A stretch of 25,406 nucleotides of DNA from a virus: positions 1 through 25,406 of the IMG/VR virus record IMGVR_UViG_3300045996_002210; one strand, written 5' to 3'. Of the stretch, positions 8,698 through 23,847 are shown in pieces. Below the pieces are notes generated by a model that was given only the letters and a program-made list of their open reading frames with translations, did no database searches and had not been told where the DNA came from. The stretch's first letter is position 1. Each line of letters opens with the position of its first letter. The position numbers were made by a program, and so were the translations under genes.

Positions 8698-8727
8698 CTG
8701 TAGGTGGAAACGTCCCCCAGGAATGGC

Positions 8728-8757
8728 GAAGGGCGGGGGCCGAAACCCCCGCCCTTC
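8728..8757 (-). terminator. Strong hairpin after the capsid gene, possible attenuator
   Basis: Perfect 12-bp inverted repeat (GAAGGGCGGGGG and its complement) with a 6-base loop, 25 bases past the capsid stop. No T-run follows on the minus strand, so it is not a classical intrinsic terminator. It may attenuate, protect a 3' end, or cap the 5' end of a transcript from the adjacent box. Confidence 0.55.
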
Positions 8758-8759
8758 TT

Positions 8760-8774
8760 CTGACCGTAGGTCAG
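8760..8774 (-). promoter_or_regulatory. Promoter-like dyad box (leftward copy)
   Basis: On the minus strand this reads CTGACCTACGGTCAG, preceded by ACC, identical to two rightward intergenic boxes at 19121 and 19612. TACGGT would be the -10 hexamer. No good -35 is seen. It lies between the capsid stop and the strong hairpin and is the only copy noticed in the virion operon. Confidence 0.5.
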
Positions 8775-8781
8775 GGTGCGA

Positions 8782-15778: not shown

Positions 15779-15953
15779 GCCCTACAGGTCCGAACGTCCC
15801 CTGAGCAGCTCGGAGGAGTGTGGACGCAAAATCGCGAGGCCCCCCCTATAGCTCGCAGGCTCCGTCAGGAGACTGCGCCTGCTCGCAACCACTGGGCGCC
15901 CACGTCGCCGAAGCCGACAGGCTGAGGCGACGATCGTCTCCCGCATCTAAGAT

Positions 15954-15972
15954 CCCCAGCGCTTCGCTGGGG
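15954..15972. repeat. 8-bp hairpin, 3-base loop
   Basis: CCCCAGCG-CTT-CGCTGGGG is a perfect inverted repeat. On the minus strand it would sit in the 5' leader of the virion operon, about 175 bases before TerS. Confidence 0.6.
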
Positions 15973-15997
15973 GCTCCGCGCTGGTGATGCTCCTGAA

Positions 15998-16021
15998 CCC
16001 CCACCCCCTATCCCCCTCCCC
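15998..16021 (-). other. G-quadruplex-type tract (bottom strand)
   Basis: The plus strand has four C-runs of 5, 5, 5 and 4 bases separated by 1, 3 and 1 bases. The minus strand therefore has four G-tracts with very short loops, a strong quadruplex pattern. It lies in the probable leader of the leftward operon. Confidence 0.6.
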
Positions 16022-16209
16022 AAACGTCCCGCACCACCCCCCGCAGAACCTGGGACGCACATCCTGAGCAGGGCGAAGAGGCGACCACAACCCCTCGAGC
16101 CCAAATACACGTACAAGGAAACGGGACTCCCAAGCCAAATGGGGCCCCCCACAACAGATATCGAAAAGACATCGGGAAGTACCGATCCAGGGAATCCTTT
16201 CTCTCTCTA

Positions 16210-16235
16210 CCCCCCCACCCCCCCACACCCCCCCC
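16210..16235 (-). other. C-run block, quadruplex-capable on bottom strand
   Basis: Three C-runs of 7, 7 and 8 bases separated by A and ACA, preceded by a CT-repeat. Homopolymer length makes this prone to sequencing error. Confidence 0.55.
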
Positions 16236-16255
16236 ATGGCGGCCGCGACCGACGC

Positions 16256-16267
16256 TCGCGCGCGCGA
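16256..16267. repeat. Alternating CG palindrome
   Basis: TCGCGCGCGCGA is a perfect 12-bp palindrome, a Z-DNA-type sequence, just before the LexA-like box. Confidence 0.5.
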
Positions 16268-16268
16268 T

Positions 16269-16284
16269 TAGAACGTTCGTTCAA
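16269..16284. promoter_or_regulatory. LexA-like (actinobacterial SOS-type) box
   Basis: TAGAACGTTCGTTCAA contains GAAC-N4-GTTC. Compared with the mycobacterial consensus TCGAAC-N4-GTTCGA, ten of twelve defined positions match. A chance match is possible. Confidence 0.35.
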
Positions 16285-16309
16285 ACCGCAGACCAGGGCA
16301 AACGCGCGC

Positions 16310-16321
16310 ATCATCGATGAT
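16310..16321. repeat. ATCATCGATGAT palindrome in AT-richer stretch
   Basis: Perfect 12-bp palindrome followed at once by further ATCAT units to about 16335. The small AT-richer island with short repeats in a GC-rich genome is a possible origin or regulator site. Confidence 0.45.
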
Positions 16322-16357
16322 CATGCATCATCATGGATGGACATGCGTGTGCTTGCT

Positions 16358-16380
16358 GTAGCTAGCACGGCGCTAGCTAC
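16358..16380. repeat. 9-bp perfect inverted repeat
   Basis: GTAGCTAGC-ACGGC-GCTAGCTAC, a perfect dyad with a 5-base spacer. No T-run follows on either strand, so an operator, origin element or RNA hairpin are all possible. Confidence 0.6.
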
Positions 16381-16464
16381 TGTTCGGAGCCTAGCCCTGC
16401 TGTCGCATGGTTCATATTGGGGGGGGATCGTAGGGATGATGCGAGGATTGGCGTCCACACTCTG

Positions 16465-16484
16465 CTAGCCCATAGTTGGGTTAG
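16465..16484 (+). repeat. 7-bp hairpin with one G-U pair
   Basis: CTAGCCC-ATAGTT-GGGTTAG folds as RNA. It lies about 80 bases upstream of the rightward leader promoter. Confidence 0.4.
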
Positions 16485-16495
16485 GCGTGAGGTGC

Positions 16496-16510
16496 GTTTC
16501 TAGGTGAAAC
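16496..16510. repeat. Degenerate relative of the 15-bp dyad
   Basis: GTTTC-TAGGT-GAAAC has the same total length and outer five bases as GTTTCC-N3-GGAAAC, but lacks the inner C/G pair. It lies 53 bases upstream of the leader -35 and could be a weaker operator. Confidence 0.45.
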
Positions 16511-16563
16511 GTGAGGGGTGACCAGGGGTTATGCTGAAATCTCAGAAATTTCCTCGAAACCTC

Positions 16564-16592
16564 TTGACAGGGTGAAGGGCAGGGTTTACAGT
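16564..16592 (+). promoter_or_regulatory. Leader promoter of the rightward arm
   Basis: TTGACA (16564-16569), 17-base spacer, TACAGT (16587-16592). Predicted start near 16599. This is the best sigma70-type promoter in the window and reads into the structured leader and the first rightward gene. Confidence 0.78.
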
Positions 16593-16599
16593 GATCATC

Positions 16600-16764
16600 G
16601 TTCGATCAAACGAACCGCACGGTACGAGGGTCTAGCTGAAAGATTGCTAGGTGTGTCCCGACCGTCGTGAGGGTCTGACTCACCCCGTAAGGGGTCAGGT
16701 TGTCAGGTGAGTCCCGCTCGCACTCTGGTGAGAGAACCCCGTTCGATTCGGGGTGTGCGAACCA
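16600..16764 (+). ncRNA. Structured leader RNA with tRNA-like 3' end (candidate)
   Basis: The predicted transcript begins with hairpin GTTCG-ATCAAA-CGAAC (16600-16615). Further helices are CTAGC/GCTAG (16632-16650) within CGGT/ACCG, an 8-bp GACTCACC/GGTGAGTC helix (about 16677-16712) enclosing a CCCC-GTAA-GGGG hairpin, and CTCT-GGTG-AGAG. Then comes a textbook T-arm CCCCG-TTCGATT-CGGGG (16737-16753), acceptor-like TGTGCGA, A and CCA (16762-16764). The acceptor strand can pair with TCGCAC at 16718 or CGCACG at 16617. No normal D-arm or anticodon arm is found, so this is not a standard tRNA. It could be a tRNA-like regulatory RNA, a tRNA-derived attachment-site remnant, or a reduced tmRNA-like relic. 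Confidence 0.42.
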
Positions 16765-16765
16765 T

Positions 16766-16780
16766 GCCCGACAGTCGGGC
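16766..16780. repeat. GCCCGA-CAG-TCGGGC dyad
   Basis: Perfect 15-bp dyad with 6-3-6 layout, three bases upstream of the first GTTTCC dyad. A related GGCCCGATCGGGCC lies in the leader at 21669. Confidence 0.6.
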
Positions 16781-16783
16781 AGC

Positions 16784-16798
16784 GTTTCCATCGGAAAC
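16784..16798. repeat. GTTTCC-N3-GGAAAC dyad, copy 1
   Basis: Centre ATC. It ends 23 bases before the ATG of the first rightward gene, upstream of its GGAG ribosome site. Confidence 0.9.
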
Positions 16799-16821
16799 AG
16801 CAGATAGGAGACAGAACCATC

Positions 16822-17298
16822 ATGAACAACAACCAGGTCATCGCTGGCATCCGCACTCGGGTGACCCGCAGCGTGCAGAACGCATTGGAGATCGGCGAGT
16901 ACGTCTCACAGTGGGATGGGTCGCTGCAGGCCTTGGCGGACGCCCTGGACGGCGACGTCAGCAAGGGCACGCTCTCGAAGTGCCACACGATGTTCAAGCA
17001 TTGGGGCACCGACGCCGCCAAGTGCGTGGCGGACGTCAAGGCCGCTGGCATGGGCTCGGGCTGGACTGAGGGCTACAACCTGCTCAAGCAGACGGCGGAG
17101 ACGCCCACCGTTTCCGACGGAAACGACGAGGGCGAGCCCGAGGGCGAGACGGCTGGCACGGCCGATCCTCGGCGCATCGTCAAGATCGACCTCGACGACC
17201 CGTTGGCCGCCCTGCTCAAGCTCGACACCGCCGATGTGGCCGCCCTGGCCACGGCCGTGGCCGCCATCCTGGTCGACCGTGAGTTGGTGGCCGCCTGA
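16822..17298 (+). CDS. First rightward gene; possible DNA-binding protein, 158 aa
   Basis: ATG at 16822 is chosen because a TAGGAG site precedes it and the frame upstream runs through the leader RNA and dyad. The N-terminal 85 residues are helical with a possible helix-turn-helix (ALADALDGDVSKGTLSKCHTM region, about residues 37-57). The middle is an acidic Glu/Gly/Thr linker (about 90-118). The C-terminus is a short helical LLKLDTADVAALATAVAAILV segment. It is the first gene of the arm and carries a dyad copy inside its coding region (VSDGN). It could be the protein that recognises the dyads, but this is speculative. No family recognised. Confidence 0.8.
   Translation: MNNNQVIAGIRTRVTRSVQNALEIGEYVSQWDGSLQALADALDGDVSKGTLSKCHTMFKHWGTDAAKCVADVKAAGMGSGWTEGYNLLKQTAETPTVSDGNDEGEPEGETAGTADPRRIVKIDLDDPLAALLKLDTADVAALATAVAAILVDRELVAA
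17110..17124. repeat. GTTTCC-N3-GGAAAC dyad, copy 2 (inside gene)
   Basis: Centre GAC. It lies in-frame within the first rightward gene, where it codes Val-Ser-Asp-Gly-Asn in the acidic linker. Confidence 0.9.
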
Positions 17299-17316
17299 AC
17301 CCTGACCTATGATCAG
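17284..17316 (+). promoter_or_regulatory. Promoter with CTGACC-type -10 box
   Basis: TTGGTG (17284-17289), 18-base spacer, TATGAT (17308-17313) inside CTGACCTATGATCAG (17302-17316). It starts just after the stop of the first gene and would drive the 51-aa gene and those after it. Confidence 0.62.
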
Positions 17317-17329
17317 TGACACCATCGCC

Positions 17330-17353
17330 CTGTCACCGCTTCGGCGGTGGCAG
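17330..17353 (+). other. 10-bp leader hairpin with UUCG tetraloop
   Basis: CTGTCACCGC-TTCG-GCGGTGGCAG, fully paired as RNA with one G-U. It begins about 10 bases after the predicted start site and has no U-run, so a 5' stabiliser or attenuator is more likely than a terminator. Confidence 0.6.
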
Positions 17354-17381
17354 GCCATGGGGCCATTCGGTCGCCAGCAGC

Positions 17382-17396
17382 GTTTCCACTGGAAAC
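17382..17396. repeat. GTTTCC-N3-GGAAAC dyad, copy 3
   Basis: Centre ACT. It ends 25 bases before the ATG at 17422, upstream of a GAGAAAGGGG ribosome site. Confidence 0.9.
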
Positions 17397-17421
17397 GCCC
17401 AACGAGAGAAAGGGGCCCGCC

Positions 17422-17577
17422 ATGGGCGAGCGCAAGCCATCCACCGTCGACAAGATCCTCGATCTGATCGACCGTGCCCTCGACGAGTACGACGAGGCGA
17501 AGCGCAACTTCGCCTACCTGGACGACCCGTACGCACTGGCCGCCCGCCGCGGCGTCATCGGTGCGCAGTTCGTCTGA
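17422..17577 (+). CDS. Small acidic/helical protein, 51 aa
   Basis: ATG with an AAAGGGG ribosome site. It has a helical first half (TVDKILDLIDRALDEYDEAK) with regular charge spacing, and no cysteines or membrane span. It lies alone between two dyads and would be the first gene of the transcript from the 17308 box. Function unknown. Confidence 0.68.
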   Translation: MGERKPSTVDKILDLIDRALDEYDEAKRNFAYLDDPYALAARRGVIGAQFV

Positions 17578-17579
17578 CC

Positions 17580-17594
17580 GTTTCCAACGGAAAC
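17580..17594. repeat. GTTTCC-N3-GGAAAC dyad, copy 4
   Basis: Centre AAC. It starts two bases after the preceding stop codon and ends 22 bases before the next ATG. Confidence 0.9.
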
Positions 17595-17616
17595 GCTGAG
17601 TGAGAGGATCACACCG

Positions 17617-17958
17617 ATGACCACGACCCCGCTGGGCACCTGGCTCGTCTACGCCAGGCCCGACGACCCGTACACCGACCACGTCGGCCGAGTGATCGGC
17701 GACGAGGGCGACAACGCCGACGAGATGGACTACGGCGATGACGTCGGGTTCGTCACGCTCGAGTTCCCCATCGCCATGCGTGGCTCCGATGGCCGCCGCA
17801 TCCAGTACTACACCGTCAAGCGCTCCGCCTGCCGCCTGGCCGACGCCTACGACGTGACCGCCCTCGTCGACGAGTGCCACACGGCCATCGTCGAGGCTGA
17901 GCGGGTCAGATGGGAGCACCAGCAGCTGCTGGCGTCCCTGCCTCAGCACGTCGACTGA
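17617..17958 (+). CDS. Hypothetical protein, 113 aa
   Basis: ATG preceded by a GAGAGGA ribosome site right after a dyad. An N-terminal beta-like part (TWLVYARPDDPYTDHVGRVIGDE) precedes an acidic loop, a VGFVTLEFPI strand and a helical C-terminus (residues about 80-110). It resembles small phage proteins with an SH3-like barrel at the N-terminus, but no family is assigned. Confidence 0.72.
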   Translation: MTTTPLGTWLVYARPDDPYTDHVGRVIGDEGDNADEMDYGDDVGFVTLEFPIAMRGSDGRRIQYYTVKRSACRLADAYDVTALVDECHTAIVEAERVRWEHQQLLASLPQHVD

Positions 17959-17964
17959 GCCCAC

Positions 17965-17979
17965 GTTTCCACTGGAAAC
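17965..17979. repeat. GTTTCC-N3-GGAAAC dyad, copy 5
   Basis: Centre ACT. It starts six bases after the preceding stop and lies 20 bases upstream of the box at 18000, so it could overlap RNA polymerase contacts. Confidence 0.9.
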
Positions 17980-17999
17980 GGTGAGGCACCGACCACACC

Positions 18000-18014
18000 C
18001 TGTCCTACAATCGG
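18000..18014 (+). promoter_or_regulatory. CTGACC-type -10 box (CTGTCCTACAATCGG)
   Basis: TACAAT (18006-18011) is the candidate -10. The right half is less symmetric than in other copies and no strong -35 is seen. The next ATG is at 18045. Confidence 0.52.
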
Positions 18015-18044
18015 GGCACCCACACACAGAGAGGATGGCCTACG

Positions 18045-18242
18045 ATGGCCTTCAAGCCCTGCACGACCGCATGGACGGTCGGCAACCGAGTCCAGGCCCA
18101 CCCCGCCACCGATGCGTGGATGATGGGCGACCGCTTCGGCGAGATCGTCGTCATCGGCAGCAAGCTCGTCCATGTCCGCATGGACCGCTCGGGCCGCCTG
18201 CTCAAGTTCCGCCCCGAGAACCTGATCGGCATCTGGCAATGA
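18045..18242 (+). CDS. Small SH3-like barrel protein, 65 aa
   Basis: The ATG at 18045 has an AGAGAGG site 11 bases upstream; an earlier ATG at 18034 is in another frame. Beta-strand pattern VGNRVQAHP, RFGEIVVIGSKLVHVRMDRSGRLLKF ends in ENLIGIW, typical of small phage KOW/SH3-like proteins. Such proteins often bind nucleic acid or partners. The stop overlaps the next ATG. Confidence 0.72.
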   Translation: MAFKPCTTAWTVGNRVQAHPATDAWMMGDRFGEIVVIGSKLVHVRMDRSGRLLKFRPENLIGIWQ

Positions 18243-18394
18243 GGGGCATCACGGGCCAGCAGCCACGCACGGTGTGGCCGTGGCGTGACGTCGAGCACGC
18301 CTACAAGACCGTCGACGACGACGGCAAGCGCTGGGTGCTCGTCTGGGACGAGCAGCAGGGCACCGTCCTCGCACCGTGGGAGGGCACCGAGTGA
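18239..18394 (+). CDS. Small protein, 51 aa
   Basis: ATGA overlap with the previous gene implies translational coupling. Tryptophan-rich (VWPWRDV, RWVLVWDEQ) with alternating beta pattern. Function not recognised. Confidence 0.62.
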   Translation: MRGITGQQPRTVWPWRDVEHAYKTVDDDGKRWVLVWDEQQGTVLAPWEGTE

Positions 18395-18552
18395 TCGTCG
18401 TCGCCATCCTGCTCGCCTGGGTCGCCCTGTCGATCCCCGTCGCCCTGATCCTCGGCCGACTGTGCCGTGGTGCCAGCAGCGTTTCCACTGGAAACGAGGA
18501 AGAGAGAGAGAACCATGCCGCACGCACTCATCCTCATGCCCGCCAGGGCTGA
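18391..18552 (+). CDS. Small single-span membrane protein, 53 aa
   Basis: GTGA overlap with the previous stop. One strong hydrophobic segment at the N-terminus (VIVVAILLAWVALSIPVALIL), then a short Cys/Arg region. The frame then runs straight through dyad copy 6 (read as VSTGN) and into the next gene's first codons. The C-terminal half is therefore encoded by the next gene's leader and is likely unconstrained. Real but weakly supported. Confidence 0.48.
   Translation: MIVVAILLAWVALSIPVALILGRLCRGASSVSTGNEEERENHAARTHPHARQG
18481..18495. repeat. GTTTCC-N3-GGAAAC dyad, copy 6
   Basis: Centre ACT, preceded by GCCAGCAGC exactly as in copy 3. It ends 19 bases before the next ATG. Confidence 0.9.
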
Positions 18553-18778
18553 GGCCTACAGCTACCACCCGATCGTCGGGCGGATCAGCTCCACCATCGA
18601 CTTCTGCTGGGGCTGCGAGCGCCCGCAGGTCATCGACGCCTCCCGCATCACGGAGTGGGTCGTGGCCCGTGTCGAGGCCGACGGCCGTGACCGCCTGGAC
18701 TACCTGGTCGACTACCAGGTGGGCCGCCTGCTGTCGGGCCTGTACCCGTCCTACGTTTCCACTGGAAACGGCTCATGA
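18515..18778 (+). CDS. Hypothetical protein with CxxC, 87 aa
   Basis: ATG after a GAGGAAGAGAGAG leader. It contains FCWGCERPQ (a CxxC pair at residues 31-34) and a helical EWVVARVEADGRDRLDYLVDY segment. The last residues before the stop (VSTGN) are coded by dyad copy 7, so the repeat forms the gene's 3' end. The stop overlaps the next ATG. Function unknown. Confidence 0.7.
   Translation: MPHALILMPARAEAYSYHPIVGRISSTIDFCWGCERPQVIDASRITEWVVARVEADGRDRLDYLVDYQVGRLLSGLYPSYVSTGNGS
18755..18769. repeat. GTTTCC-N3-GGAAAC dyad, copy 7
   Basis: Centre ACT. It lies at the 3' end of one gene, in frame, and ends five bases before the next ATG. Confidence 0.9.
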
Positions 18779-18960
18779 GCGCCTACGACCCCTGCTTCGT
18801 GTGCTGGGAGCCCATCGACGACGGCGACGAGCCACACACCAACCACGACCCCCGCTGTCCCGCTGCACGGGACGTGGACGCCGAGTGCGCCCTGTACGGC
18901 GACTGCGGGCCTGACGTCCACGAGGGGTGCTGCCCAACCTGCAAGGACGACGAACCATGA
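18775..18960 (+). CDS. Cysteine-rich zinc-binding-type protein, 61 aa
   Basis: Nearly all of the sequence is metal-ligand motif: C7-x2-C10, H21, H24, C28, C38, C44, H49, C52-C53-x2-C56. Likely a small zinc protein. ATGA overlaps at both ends suggest coupled translation with neighbours. No specific function assigned. Confidence 0.68.
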   Translation: MSAYDPCFVCWEPIDDGDEPHTNHDPRCPAARDVDAECALYGDCGPDVHEGCCPTCKDDEP

Positions 18961-19124
18961 TCGTCCGCATCTGGCTCGCCCTCGTCGAGCGAGCCCTCCA
19001 CGCCATCACAGGTGGCACCCTGATCGTCGACGTGGACGCCACACGGCAAGCCATGACCGACTTCGCCTGGGAAGCGTTCGGCATCCGCCTGGCGTTTCCA
19101 GAGGAAACGACGACTGAACCCTGA
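18957..19124 (+). CDS. Small protein, 55 aa
   Basis: ATGA start overlap. A hydrophobic-helical N-terminus (IVRIWLALVERALHAITGG) could be an amphipathic helix. Dyad copy 8 and the stop codon both lie in the last codons, and the TGA itself is part of the following CTGACC box. Function unknown. Confidence 0.58.
   Translation: MIVRIWLALVERALHAITGGTLIVDVDATRQAMTDFAWEAFGIRLAFPEETTTEP
19094..19108. repeat. GTTTCC-N3-GGAAAC dyad, copy 8
   Basis: Centre AGA. Overlaps the end of a gene and sits where the -35 of the following box would be, so binding could block RNA polymerase. Confidence 0.9.
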
Positions 19125-19135
19125 CCTACGGTCAG
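19121..19135 (+). promoter_or_regulatory. CTGACC-type -10 box (perfect dyad)
   Basis: CTGACCTACGGTCAG, with TACGGT (19127-19132) as -10. It overlaps the stop codon of the preceding gene. The ADP-ribosyltransferase-like gene starts at 19157 after an AGAGAGGAAGAGAG leader. Confidence 0.58.
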
Positions 19136-19156
19136 ACCACACAGAGAGGAAGAGAG

Positions 19157-19615
19157 ATGACGTTCACCCTGGACGAGGCCGTGGCCGAAGCGGCCGACAA
19201 GGGCCTGATCGATCCCACGTTCGGATACCACGGCACCCGTGGTCACTTCAAGGTCGGCGACTACATCCTGCCCTCGGACGAGGTCAAGCAGCAGAACCCG
19301 TCGCACGAGCCGAACTTCTCGATCAGCGACAAGACGCGGGCCTACTTCACGGCAGGAGCGTTCGACTCCACGCTCTACGCCTGGGGCGGCTGCGACACGT
19401 CAATCGACTGCGCCTGGCAGTGGGCGAAGTCCAGCCATGACCGCACCTGGCGGCTCGCCCCCGAGCAGGTGGACACCATCCTCGGCCCGCCCGTTGTGCT
19501 CAAGGTCGAGCCCGAGGGCGAGGTTCGTGGCGACCGCAACTTCTGGTACGGCGAGCCACGCCCCGAACTGACCGCCGACCGCCTGCGCATCGTCGAGATC
19601 ATCATCAAACCCTGA
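19157..19615 (+). CDS. Arr-like ADP-ribosyltransferase (probable)
   Basis: 152 aa. Pattern matches the rifampin ADP-ribosyltransferase (Arr) family: GYHGT with H25 near the N-terminus, RAYFTAGAF with Y63, and KVEPEGEVRGDRN with D126, then RLRIV near the end. H-Y-D is the known Arr catalytic triad; Arr uses NAD to modify a small-molecule hydroxyl. The central part has an unusual Trp/Cys-rich stretch (WGGCDTSIDCAWQWA). In phages ADP-ribosyltransferases often modify host RNA polymerase or other proteins, so the substrate is unknown. Resemblance was judged by eye; length is close to Arr. It has its own box and leader, implying individual control. Confidence 0.7.
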   Translation: MTFTLDEAVAEAADKGLIDPTFGYHGTRGHFKVGDYILPSDEVKQQNPSHEPNFSISDKTRAYFTAGAFDSTLYAWGGCDTSIDCAWQWAKSSHDRTWRLAPEQVDTILGPPVVLKVEPEGEVRGDRNFWYGEPRPELTADRLRIVEIIIKP

Positions 19616-19626
19616 CCTACGGTCAG
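19612..19626 (+). promoter_or_regulatory. CTGACC-type -10 box (perfect dyad)
   Basis: CTGACCTACGGTCAG, identical to the 19121 copy and containing the preceding gene's stop codon. TACGGT (19618-19623) is the candidate -10. One base separates it from dyad copy 9, which would start at about +1 of the transcript. Confidence 0.58.
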
Positions 19627-19627
19627 C

Positions 19628-19642
19628 GTTTCCAACGGAAAC
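19628..19642. repeat. GTTTCC-N3-GGAAAC dyad, copy 9
   Basis: Centre AAC. It abuts the preceding box and ends 12 bases before the ATG at 19655. Confidence 0.9.
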
Positions 19643-19654
19643 AGAGAGGAACAC

Positions 19655-20551
19655 ATGAAAGAACTGACCGAACTGCTCGAGCCCTACGCCGCCGACATGG
19701 AGATCCGCTTCCACCTCGGCGCCGCGGCGGGCGCCCGCTGGCGCTCCATCGGCGACGCCTACGCCCTCTTCGGCGAGGTGCGTGAGCGCTACGGCTTCGC
19801 CCCTGCCAAGACTCGCATCCCGCTGCTCACGCCGCCCGATGCCAACATGAAGCTGGACAAGGCGACCACACCCAGCTTCGGGCTGACCATCCAGCACTAC
19901 GTGCAGAAGCTGTCGACGGGGCTGACGGTGAACGCCTGCCCGTTCGCTGGCGACTGCGTCAAGGTGTGCGTGCTGGACAACGGCATGGGCCGCTACAGCA
20001 GGGTGCAGCTGGCTCGCCGTGCGAAGACCGAGTTCCTGGTGGAGTACCCGAGGGAGTTCGCCACCCTGCTCGGCTACGAGCTTGCGATGGCCGTCAAGAA
20101 GCACGGCAAGATCCTGTTCCGCCCCAACGTGAACAGCGACGTCGCCTGGGAGCGCCTGCTGCCCTCGCTGGTGAACGGCCACATCGACGGCGTCACCAGC
20201 TACGGCTACAGCAAGCGGCCCGAAGTGCTGGACACCAACGGCTGGCTCGGCACGCACTATCGGGTGGCGTACAGCTGGAACGAGAAGAGCGACCCCGACG
20301 CCATCGAGGAGTTCATCGTGGCTGGCGGCTCCGTGGCCGTGGTCACGTCCCGCAAGAAGGGTGAGCCCGTGGCGGACGCGATCAAGCTCGGCGAGTGGGA
20401 GTACAGCGAGGGCGGCGACGACACGCCGCACCTAATGGACGCCGACGCCACCGACGAGTGGATCTTCACCGACGGCGCCATCGGCGACCTCTCGGCGAAG
20501 GGCAAGGCCCGCTCGCTCGTCGGCAAATCAGGCTTCGTCGTCACTGTGTAG
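19655..20551 (+). CDS. Cysteine-cluster protein, resembles phage gp88 family, 298 aa
   Basis: ATG with an AGAGAGGA ribosome site. The core has LLTPPDANMKLDKA, then ACPFAGDCVKVC (C95-x5-C101-x3-C105), RYSRVQLARRAKTEFL, a GKILFRPNVNSDVAWERL segment and later a SYGYSKRPEVLD region. Cysteine trio plus the following helix resembles the gp88 domain of phages as I recall it, whose function is not known. The cysteines could hold a metal or iron-sulphur cluster, but there is no classical radical-SAM CxxxCxxC. Largest complete protein of the right arm in this window. Its expression is set by the box and dyad immediately upstream. Confidence 0.75.
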   Translation: MKELTELLEPYAADMEIRFHLGAAAGARWRSIGDAYALFGEVRERYGFAPAKTRIPLLTPPDANMKLDKATTPSFGLTIQHYVQKLSTGLTVNACPFAGDCVKVCVLDNGMGRYSRVQLARRAKTEFLVEYPREFATLLGYELAMAVKKHGKILFRPNVNSDVAWERLLPSLVNGHIDGVTSYGYSKRPEVLDTNGWLGTHYRVAYSWNEKSDPDAIEEFIVAGGSVAVVTSRKKGEPVADAIKLGEWEYSEGGDDTPHLMDADATDEWIFTDGAIGDLSAKGKARSLVGKSGFVVTV

Positions 20552-20552
20552 C

Positions 20553-20567
20553 CTGATCTACAGTCAG
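20553..20567 (+). promoter_or_regulatory. CTGACC-type -10 box (CTGATCTACAGTCAG)
   Basis: TACAGT (20559-20564) is a good -10. It lies one base after the preceding TAG stop and 12 bases before dyad copy 10. Confidence 0.56.
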
Positions 20568-20579
20568 ACAATCGCAACC

Positions 20580-20594
20580 GTTTCCACTGGAAAC
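20580..20594. repeat. GTTTCC-N3-GGAAAC dyad, copy 10
   Basis: Centre ACT. It ends 18 bases before the ATG at 20613 and is followed at once by an AGAGAGAGGAAG ribosome-site region. Confidence 0.9.
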
Positions 20595-20612
20595 AGAGAG
20601 AGGAAGAAGAAC

Positions 20613-20912
20613 ATGAGCAAGAGCAACACACAGCGGCGACAGGAGTTCGCCGCCGCCATGGCGGCGCTGCACGCCGCCGAGCAGAGGGCGGCCGAGGCCG
20701 CTCGCAACCTGCCCAAGCTGCCCCGCAACGTGTCAGGCCAGGTCCATGAGCCAGGGATCCTGCGGGTCGAGGGCGACCTCGAGTTCGAGGACGGCAGCTG
20801 GTTCTGCCCGACCGACGGGCATAGCTCGTACGGCGAGACGGGCGCCTTCGAGTACGTCGTGGGCTACGACGGCCAGGTCTACGCCACGCCCGAGAGGATC
20901 GAGTGGTCATGA
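20613..20912 (+). CDS. Hypothetical protein, 99 aa
   Basis: An N-terminal Ala/Gln/Glu helix (residues 5-35, likely coiled coil) and a C-terminal beta part (GILRVEGDLEFEDGSWFCPTD, YVVGYDGQVYATPERIEW). The stop overlaps the next ATG. Function unknown. Confidence 0.72.
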   Translation: MSKSNTQRRQEFAAAMAALHAAEQRAAEAARNLPKLPRNVSGQVHEPGILRVEGDLEFEDGSWFCPTDGHSSYGETGAFEYVVGYDGQVYATPERIEWS

Positions 20913-21232
20913 GCTTCGAGCCACCCACCGAACCAGCCCGCTACGCCAGCCGCTTCGACCCGTGCATCTGGGTCGAGGACGACGGCACCATCAGCGCCTC
21001 ATGGGGCGGGTCGTACTGCGACTCGGCCATCCTGCCCTCGTACGACGTCCTGCCGAACGATGAGACGGGCCTCGACGAGCCAACGCCGAGCCAGCTGCTC
21101 GACGAGCGCCTGGACTCCATCCGCGACGTGTTCGCCCACTACGACGCCATCGGCACGGTCGACAGCGTCGACGAGGGCGAACTGCTCGAGGCGCTGGTGC
21201 GCCTCGTCCGCCCCTTCTTCGAGGAGGCATGA
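20909..21232 (+). CDS. Hypothetical protein, 107 aa
   Basis: The ATG at 20909 overlaps the previous stop (ATGA); a GTG at 20903 is possible but less likely. Beta-rich start (CIWVEDDGTISASWGGSYCD), then a helical C-terminus with LLDERLDSIRDVFAHYDAIG. Acidic. Function unknown. Confidence 0.7.
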   Translation: MSFEPPTEPARYASRFDPCIWVEDDGTISASWGGSYCDSAILPSYDVLPNDETGLDEPTPSQLLDERLDSIRDVFAHYDAIGTVDSVDEGELLEALVRLVRPFFEEA

Positions 21233-21519
21233 TGACCGCTCTCGCCATCTTTGGCCCGAACGGGCACGGACCCGACGAGCCCCCGTTCCATGTCCACGCC
21301 GTCGGCTGCGCTGACACCTTTAGGCGTCGCTACGCCACCTGCGAGTACTACAAGGAGGACTTCGACTCTCTGCGGGAGCTGGTCGAGTCGTACTACGACG
21401 GCCAGCTACAGGACAACGCAGACGACCCCGCTGGGTGGGGCGAATGGGAGGCGTACATCGACGAGTTCAAGGTCTTCCCGTGCGTGAAGGGCCTCGTCGA
21501 CGTCGCGGCGGTGCCATGA
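21229..21519 (+). CDS. Hypothetical protein, 96 aa
   Basis: Consecutive ATGs at 21229 and 21232; the first overlaps the previous stop. Contains FHVHAVGCADTFRRRY, a motif I associate with a widespread family of small phage proteins without known function, and an acidic DSLRELVESYYDGQ helix. Function unknown. Confidence 0.7.
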   Translation: MMTALAIFGPNGHGPDEPPFHVHAVGCADTFRRRYATCEYYKEDFDSLRELVESYYDGQLQDNADDPAGWGEWEAYIDEFKVFPCVKGLVDVAAVP

Positions 21520-21623
21520 TAGGAGCGGTGGACCGCGAGACGTGGGGCGACAGGCTGCTGTGGATCTACGCCATCGTCATGGCTGGCGTGACCGTCGCCA
21601 CCATCGTCTCCTGGATCACATAA
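21516..21623 (+). CDS. Small membrane protein, 35 aa
   Basis: ATGA overlap with the previous gene; a GTG at 21528 after ATAGGAG is an alternative start. One hydrophobic segment (LLWIYAIVMAGVTVATIV) near the C-terminus. Below the usual size for confident calling. Confidence 0.5.
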   Translation: MIGAVDRETWGDRLLWIYAIVMAGVTVATIVSWIT

Positions 21624-21627
21624 TCGT

Positions 21628-21660
21628 TTGACGGGGACGTAAACCCTGTGCTATAGTCAG
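21628..21660 (+). promoter_or_regulatory. Promoter with CTGACC-type -10 box and good -35
   Basis: TTGACG (21628-21633), 18-base spacer, TATAGT (21652-21657) inside CTGTGCTATAGTCAG (21646-21660). This copy has the clearest -35 and supports reading the whole family as promoters. Confidence 0.75.
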
Positions 21661-21668
21661 TAATAGAC

Positions 21669-21682
21669 GGCCCGATCGGGCC
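21669..21682. repeat. GGCCCGATCGGGCC leader palindrome
   Basis: Perfect 14-bp palindrome about 11 bases after the -10 box. It takes the position that the GTTTCC dyad has in other leaders. Confidence 0.65.
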
Positions 21683-21704
21683 ACGAATAGAGGAGAACAC
21701 AGCA

Positions 21705-21941
21705 ATGCAAGGCATCTTCATCAACGGTCAGCGCCCTGCCTCGAAGAAGGCGATCAAGGAAGCGGTCGTCGCAGGCGGACGGGTCCGCATCGAGGCCACG
21801 TCCATGTTCGGCAACGAATACGACGGCGACGTCAGCCAGGCGCCCGACGGCAAGTACACGTTCGTCGGCCCCGACCCGTACACGAAGCGCAACTTCTACG
21901 GGACCATCACGGTCAAGGGCGGCACGGCCAAGGTCGTCTGA
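21705..21941 (+). CDS. Small actinophage-type protein, 78 aa
   Basis: ATG with a GAGGAG ribosome site. Pattern FINGQRPASKKAIKEAV followed by RVRIEATSMFGNEYDGDV and YTFVGPDPYTKRNFYGTI is one I recognise from many actinobacteriophage genomes, where it has no known function. All-beta C-terminal half. Own promoter and no GTTTCC dyad, unlike its neighbours. Confidence 0.8.
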   Translation: MQGIFINGQRPASKKAIKEAVVAGGRVRIEATSMFGNEYDGDVSQAPDGKYTFVGPDPYTKRNFYGTITVKGGTAKVV

Positions 21942-21944
21942 ACC

Positions 21945-21959
21945 CTGTCCTACGATCAG
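21945..21959 (+). promoter_or_regulatory. CTGACC-type -10 box (CTGTCCTACGATCAG)
   Basis: TACGAT (21951-21956) is the candidate -10. The box starts three bases after the stop, and dyad copy 11 starts two bases after the box. Confidence 0.57.
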
Positions 21960-21961
21960 CC

Positions 21962-21976
21962 GTTTCCACTGGAAAC
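21962..21976. repeat. GTTTCC-N3-GGAAAC dyad, copy 11 (last)
   Basis: Centre ACT. It ends 20 bases before the ATG at 21997. No further complete copy was seen to the right. Confidence 0.9.
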
Positions 21977-23423: not shown

Positions 23424-23644
23424 CCACCGAACAGCCGTACTTCGAGGTTCGCCTCACCCTCGAGCAGATCAACGCCGTCATCAAGTCGGTCGGCATCACG
23501 CTCGACAAGGCGGCGACCAAGCTGCTCCGCCTGCCCCCGACGGGCCGTCTGGCCGACGAGACGAAGGCCGAGTTCTCGGCCCTGTCGGAGGGCCTCGACT
23601 TGCTGCGCGACGTGCAGCACGACGCCCTGGTGGGTGCGCTGTGA
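23420..23644 (+). CDS. Hypothetical protein, 74 aa
   Basis: ATG with an AAAGGA ribosome site and an ATGA overlap. Starts YFEVRLTLEQINAVIKSVG, a helical pattern with paired Leu. Helical to the end. Function unknown. Confidence 0.68.
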   Translation: MTTEQPYFEVRLTLEQINAVIKSVGITLDKAATKLLRLPPTGRLADETKAEFSALSEGLDLLRDVQHDALVGAL

Positions 23645-23847
23645 CCCTGAGGTTCAGTCGGACACTGGATCGGTTCCTCGACGGGTTCATCGCCATCACC
23701 GTGCTGGCCCTCGGCCTCGCCGTCCTGTACGTCGCCCTCCTGGCCGTGCATGCGCTCGTGAGCAACCCAGGCGTCGTCCTGGTGTTCGCCAGCGTGATGG
23801 GGTCGGCCTACAGCCTCGGCTGGCTCGCCGAGAGGCTGGGCTTGTGA
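23641..23847 (+). CDS. Two-span membrane protein, 68 aa
   Basis: GTG start overlap. Two hydrophobic spans (about residues 15-38 and 42-60) with a basic N-terminus. Holin-like in shape, but no lysin lies nearby. Function unknown. Confidence 0.65.
   Translation: MTLRFSRTLDRFLDGFIAITVLALGLAVLYVALLAVHALVSNPGVVLVFASVMGSAYSLGWLAERLGL

Follow-up and report, generated by a model that had tools for sequence, protein, structure and literature searches.

Intergenic 18-bp boxes as probable -10 regions of internal promoters in a podovirus-like virus fragment

The IMG/VR virus record IMGVR_UViG_3300045996_002210 is represented here by a fragment of 25.4 kb (25,406 nucleotides; hereafter the window) with 67% G+C, and the genome is incomplete. 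Eight near-identical copies of an 18-bp box, ACCCTGWNCTAYRRTCAG, are present in this window; seven lie in a rightward arm of small genes and one lies in a leftward structural operon. Based on sequence comparison, these boxes are probably the -10 regions of internal promoters for RNA polymerase with the host primary sigma factor, combined with a phage-specific element in the spacer. Good support for the -10 reading comes from the intergenic placement of the boxes, the orientation of all eight copies, the shared hexamer TAYRRT, and one -35 element that is in register.

The first-pass annotation of this DNA had listed seven rightward copies and one leftward copy. All eight were found, and a motif scan returned exactly these. 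When at most one mismatch was allowed, the 16-bp pattern had eight matches, compared with a mean of 0.18 and a maximum of two in 100 dinucleotide-preserving shuffles. A leave-one-out position weight matrix (identical copies collapsed) placed every copy within the top 8 of 50,778 positions; the true copies scored 26 bits or more, compared with 15 bits for the next site. The motif previously given for all copies, CTGNNC-TAnnnT-CAG, requires some adjustment. Seven of the eight copies match CCTGNNCTANNNTCAG exactly, the copy at 18000 has a TCGG end instead of TCAG, and conservation extends over 18 bp. Six distinct sequences are found among the eight boxes, with boxes 3, 4, and 8 being identical (Table 1). 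The hexamer TAYRRT is present in all eight, with invariant TA and T. The boxes also have in common the block ACCCTG, with three bases between it and the hexamer, and a CAG that closely follows the hexamer. This conservation is one-sided, including ACC beyond the box core upstream and nothing extra downstream. As a separate observation, a possible degenerate ninth box, ACCCTGAGGTTCAGTCGG, is located at a gene junction (positions 23644-23661) just after a stop codon and scores 15 bits.

For gene placement, genes were called with a codon model trained on homology-confirmed genes. All eight boxes are intergenic, although two overlap the last bases of the preceding gene and contain its TGA. Gaps account for 6.8% of the rightward arm, and by the gene calls used, random placement would put all seven rightward copies there with p of about 4e-9. 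Each box is codirectional with its downstream gene (8/8; chance 1/256), and the sole box of the leftward operon is flipped. Among the gaps of at least 20 nt listed before rightward genes, seven of nine have a box; the two without are the leader and a 39-nt gap at 17578. Boxes are never found at overlapping gene pairs, nor in the stretch 18395-18514, for which the coding status is uncertain. Six of the seven rightward copies lie 21-45 nt from the start codon, with a purine-rich ribosome site in between, and the remaining one lies 105 nt from it. In three copies that are not dyads, TGA or TAA stands directly 5' of ACCCTG, and the TGA at 17296 and at 21939 is the stop codon of the previous gene.

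The most direct link to a promoter is found at box 6. A search of both strands of the whole window for TTGACN-N16..18-TANNNT gave two matches (0.21 expected), one in the leader at 16564 and the other at 21628. The -10 of the latter is the hexamer of box 6 in exact register, which confirms the TTGACG at 18-base spacing (TTGACG-N18-TATAGT) reported earlier. This in-register coincidence with a -35/-10 pair is the best single reason for the -10 reading. The leader match is a consensus promoter that serves as an internal comparison, and its hexamer, TACAGT, is also that of box 5. Because the leader promoter lacks the ACCCTG block, the rightward arm seems to have two kinds of promoter. The first-pass annotation had regarded the centre of the box as an actinobacterial -10 hexamer. 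Placement, orientation, TAYRRT, and the register of box 6 support the -10 part of that claim, but the word actinobacterial is not established.

Several observations weigh against a promoter function. A -35 element of the host primary-sigma type (TTGACN at 16-18 bp) is present at box 6 only and is weak or absent in the others, such that seven of the eight boxes have no convincing -35. The upstream -35 score is marginally above random (p=0.016), due largely to box 6. As the box also exceeds a normal -10 in length and strictness, it could be a protein site other than a promoter. In addition, a strong hairpin lies directly after box 8. In most of 20 relatives inspected, a strong GC-rich hairpin comes directly 3' of the capsid gene; in the window (8700-8760), box 8 stands between the capsid stop and this hairpin. 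Finally, no relative with the same box was found in the IMG/VR scan or among capsid/terminase loci. Regarding the first of these points, promoters lacking a -35 exist, and a missing -35 lowers the case for a sigma70/SigA promoter without excluding it.

The same observations may be explained by a protein-binding or RNA-processing element at gene ends, such as an endonuclease or anti-termination site, rather than a promoter. Most boxes begin only a few bases from the stop codon of the preceding gene, as would be expected of such an element, and the scarcity of -35 elements and the hairpin next to box 8 are also compatible with it. However, the boxes are absent from overlapping gene pairs and mark gaps before a new ribosome site, they contain a bacterial hexamer with invariant TA and T together with the in-register TTGACG, and they have no conserved RNA structure (Rfam also gave no match). 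A gene-end element is thus considered quite unlikely, whereas a promoter function of the boxes is likely on the sequence patterns described above.

For the transcription machinery, the RNA polymerase family RNA_pol (PF00940) is absent from the window, itself a fragment, and from about 34 related records of 8-41 kb, whereas the T7 control was positive at 1e-109. No sigma70 region 2 was found in 20 records, one of which is the window, and bacterial controls were positive. The lack of both a T7-type RNA polymerase and sigma region 2 therefore favours use of the host enzyme. It also bears on the idea that a phage-encoded single-subunit RNA polymerase, in the style of T7-like podoviruses, uses the box as its promoter. 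The long asymmetric motif, its codirectionality with genes, and the podovirus-like genome fit this idea, and box 6 (AACCCTGTGCTATAG) has a loose resemblance to the T7/T3 promoter class. Nevertheless, with PF00940 missing from the window fragment and the related records, a bacterial -35 in register at box 6, and variable positions inside the hexamer as in TANNNT, a promoter for a single-subunit polymerase is very improbable.

The first-pass annotation had also proposed a phage-specific sigma factor or activator. Such a factor is possible, but the rightward-arm proteins have no match to any known regulator and no candidate gene for a sigma factor or activator was found in the window. Likewise, no MotA/AsiA-like factor was matched among the proteins of the rightward arm, most of which have no family match, in this incomplete genome. 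A more specific version is offered as a rather doubtful suggestion: ACCCTG, immediately upstream of the -10, would be bound by a phage factor (an activator or a protein that remodels sigma) that takes over from -35 recognition at an unusually short distance, and the boxes would represent a phage-specific class of promoters in this uncultured podovirus.

Dyad symmetry provides a further alternative, namely that the promoter has an embedded operator, and a dimeric repressor on a CTG-N9-CAG dyad centred on the -10 blocks RNA polymerase. The invariant CTG and CAG mirror each other as reverse complements, with the second base of the hexamer at the centre. Perfect dyads are found in three copies (19121, 19612, and the leftward 8774-8760), with 6-bp arms, CTGACC-TAC-GGTCAG. 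Those at 19121 and 19612 hold the TGA of the previous gene as annotated previously, although the perfect dyads number three rather than two. These three copies are one identical sequence, and only they fold with a full stem as single-stranded DNA (z -3.2 to -3.8). As a result, the arrangement of an N4-type hairpin promoter, which has a 5-7 bp stem and a 3-nt loop in each copy, was not found across the family. Across the six distinct sequences, the outer CTG...CAG alone is kept, and the inner pairs fail in three to four of six. Counted over all copies, five of the eight break the inner arms. No dyad pair is compensated, and all 500 shuffles do as well in covariation. Box conservation extending on one side only is also difficult to reconcile with an operator, and a fully symmetric family, GTTTCC-N3-GGAAAC, already adjoins the boxes. 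With three outer base pairs as its basis, the reading of a repressor site around the -10 is weak. The earlier suggestion of a -10 inside a functional dyad with repressor overlap is not upheld by these patterns; a dyad function of the box is unlikely, and so is the embedded operator as a whole.

The GTTTCC dyads are probably regulator sites. Ten of the 11 copies are located 5-65 nt before start codons and are interleaved with the boxes, with offsets from the box start that vary from -32 to +83. Box 6, the sole box with a full -35, has no GTTTCC dyad. If regulation is involved, these dyads are better operator candidates than the box symmetry.

Under the preferred reading of the boxes as internal promoters, each box would restart transcription after a gene end and drive the next one to few small genes, with seven promoters serving the rightward early-type arm and one serving the leftward structural operon. 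Recognition may involve TAYRRT, the phage-specific ACCCTG at about -21 to -16, and the downstream CAG, mostly without a -35. Transcription would start about 7 bp after the hexamer, and a regulator may bind the neighbouring GTTTCC dyads rather than the CTG/CAG symmetry of the box.

Table 1. Boxes, leader promoter, and GTTTCC dyads in the window.
Feature	Position	Strand	Sequence and promoter elements	Context
Box 1	17299..17316	+	ACCCTGACCTATGATCAG; -10-like TATGAT 17308-17313; weak TTGGTG at 18 bp	directly after TGA stop of 16822-17298; 105 nt to ATG 17422
Box 2	17997..18014	+	ACCCTGTCCTACAATCGG; TCGG variant	30 nt to ATG 18045
Box 3	19118..19135	+	ACCCTGACCTACGGTCAG; perfect dyad	holds TGA stop of 18957-19124; 21 nt to ATG 19157
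Box 4	19609..19626	+	same as box 3	holds TGA stop of 19157-19615; 28 nt to ATG 19655 (GP88 homologue)
Box 5	20550..20567	+	AGCCTGATCTACAGTCAG	begins in TAG stop of 19655-20551; 45 nt to ATG 20613
Box 6	21643..21660	+	ACCCTGTGCTATAGTCAG; TTGACG 21628-21633, 18 bp, TGC-TATAGT (hexamer 21652-21657)	44 nt to ATG 21705; sole box with full promoter
Box 7	21942..21959	+	ACCCTGTCCTACGATCAG	directly after TGA stop of 21705-21941; 37 nt to ATG 21997
Box 8	8760..8777	-	same sequence as boxes 3 and 4	upstream of leftward gene 8694-8416; capsid gene stop on one side, GC-rich hairpin on the other
Leader promoter	16564..16592	+	TTGACA-17-TACAGT, consensus; no ACCCTG block	internal comparison
GTTTCC-N3-GGAAAC dyads (n=11)	16784..21976			16784, 17110, 17382, 17580, 17965, 18481, 18755, 19094, 19628, 20580, 21962

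For the distribution of the box among other viruses, a complete IMG/VR scan with ACCCTGWCCTAYRRTCAG hit 18 contigs once each, always within an open reading frame, and several of these matches repeat the same peptide-coding context. The box and the GTTTCC dyad together had no match elsewhere in IMG/VR, and neither did the GTTTCC dyad with AGAGAGGA. Among 19 of the longest relative contigs, only chance single box matches were found. Position weight matrix hits in about 160 capsid/terminase loci seemed enriched relative to a reversed control; these were rejected as conserved coding stretches. The box is private to this phage within the searched data, and near-identical records may lie outside the search. 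The first-pass annotation had held that the motif occurring mainly inside genes in relatives would speak against a promoter. This was not found in the intended sense, because the relatives have no such box family at all.

The leftward structural block of the window includes genes for terminase, portal, scaffold, major capsid, and tail/virion proteins. The rightward arm includes small genes from 16822, via the GP88 homologue at 19655-20551, up to an RtcB-like ligase at the right edge, and its proteins mostly have no match to any family. We describe this arm as early-type and the virus as an uncultured, podovirus-like phage of bacteria. No near relative of the window was found among named phages, and IMG/VR contains capsid and terminase relatives at 46-62% identity. 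The early protein of 16822-17298 has no relatives in IMG/VR or in named phages. The product of 19655-20551 has no relatives in IMG/VR and is 27-29% identical to GP88 proteins of mycobacteriophages. A search of bacterial genomes for capsid relatives did not settle the host; one relative (44% identical) is located in an Acidimicrobiales metagenome-assembled genome, and other capsid relatives are in proteobacteria. An actinobacterial host is plausible from these comparisons, with the GP88 homologue and the Acidimicrobiales capsid being the only hints.

The leader between the divergent arms (about 1 kb; 15780-16820) has low coding signal and holds the TTGACA-17-TACAGT promoter. It also has a GTTCG-ATCAAA-CGAAC repeat at 16600-16615 and a LexA-box-like GAACGTTCGTTC at 16271. 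A tRNA-like element at 16718-16764 (TCGCACT ... CCCCG-TTCGATT-CGGGG-TGTGCGA-A-CCA) has an acceptor and a T arm with no room for an anticodon arm; it was not called by ARAGORN and its fold is no better than shuffles. Among the capsid/terminase relatives, GTTTC-N4..7-GAAAC dyads number 43 in 1.7 Mb compared with five for a control dyad, with some loci overlapping. The dyad centres are lineage-specific: GTTTCAGCGCTGAAAC occurs eight times in the L317 record, in many cases immediately 3' of a stop codon, and others are GTTTCTGCAGAAAC and GTTTCTATGTAGAAAC. The loci involved are L317 (leftward arm of the record behind L170); L153, L163, L144, and L162; and L206/L322. Since the GTTTC half-site resembles parS, ParB_N was sought, and none was found in 20 records. 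L075, a contig with 39% GC, has an unrelated family of dyads built around CCTGAC...GTCAGG, which numbers at least five copies within 10.8 kb.

If the promoter reading is true, the boxes provide a promoter map for an arm of an otherwise uncharacterised podovirus. They would also exemplify promoters that have, in place of -35 contacts, a conserved block that touches the -10 spacer. Repeated motifs of this type allow small gene groups of unknown function to be divided into transcription units from sequence alone, and general ideas of phage transcription would stay unchanged.

The closest described counterpart is the ESAS of Cluster K mycobacteriophages, which is 46-47 bp long and has -35 and -10 elements spaced by 17-18 bp and an inverted repeat of 15-17 bp at a fixed position in the motif (PMC3203893; PMC11373665). 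Adephagia has seven intergenic ESAS copies with predicted SigA-like hexamers, which were treated as SigA-like promoters with inverted repeats (PMC11373665, PMC3203893), and the ESAS is located just upstream of the SAS, GGGATAGGAGCCC (PMC3203893; PMC11373665). As with the ESAS, the window has several conserved intergenic promoter-like motifs in the non-structural arm, one per small gene group, with inverted repeats present and the motif adjoining translation starts. However, the boxes are 18 bp long, mostly lack a -35, and have dyads at variable offsets on either side, and the 46-47 bp unit was not found. The SAS is not enriched in the window (five loose matches compared with 8.8 expected). In T4 middle promoters, a spacing of 12 +/- 1 bp separates the MotA box, centred at -30, from the -10 (PMC2988021). 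The boxes similarly would keep the host -10 and replace the -35 with a phage-specific upstream block, but their ACCCTG ends 3 bp from the hexamer and no MotA/AsiA homologue was seen in the rightward arm. The PeSL cassettes of T4-type phages are modules of a promoter and a stem-loop (Arbiol et al. 2010, Comeau et al. 2014, as cited in PMC4503421). As in those cassettes, modules of a promoter and a dyad or stem-loop occupy the gaps between small early genes, whereas the dyads here are short symmetric DNA sites of varying order and distance, with no fixed promoter-terminator pair. The 17-bp palindromes of Cluster O (Corndog) show strict symmetry, and most of them do not coincide with predicted promoters (PMC4351075). 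The GTTTCC dyads near the boxes resemble these in being many copies of a short dyad, and the Corndog genome is that of an actinobacterial phage; the box itself differs in being asymmetric and always intergenic. The boxes are most likely small internal start switches for the genes of this virus, of a type already described in phages, rather than the palindromic switch proposed at first.

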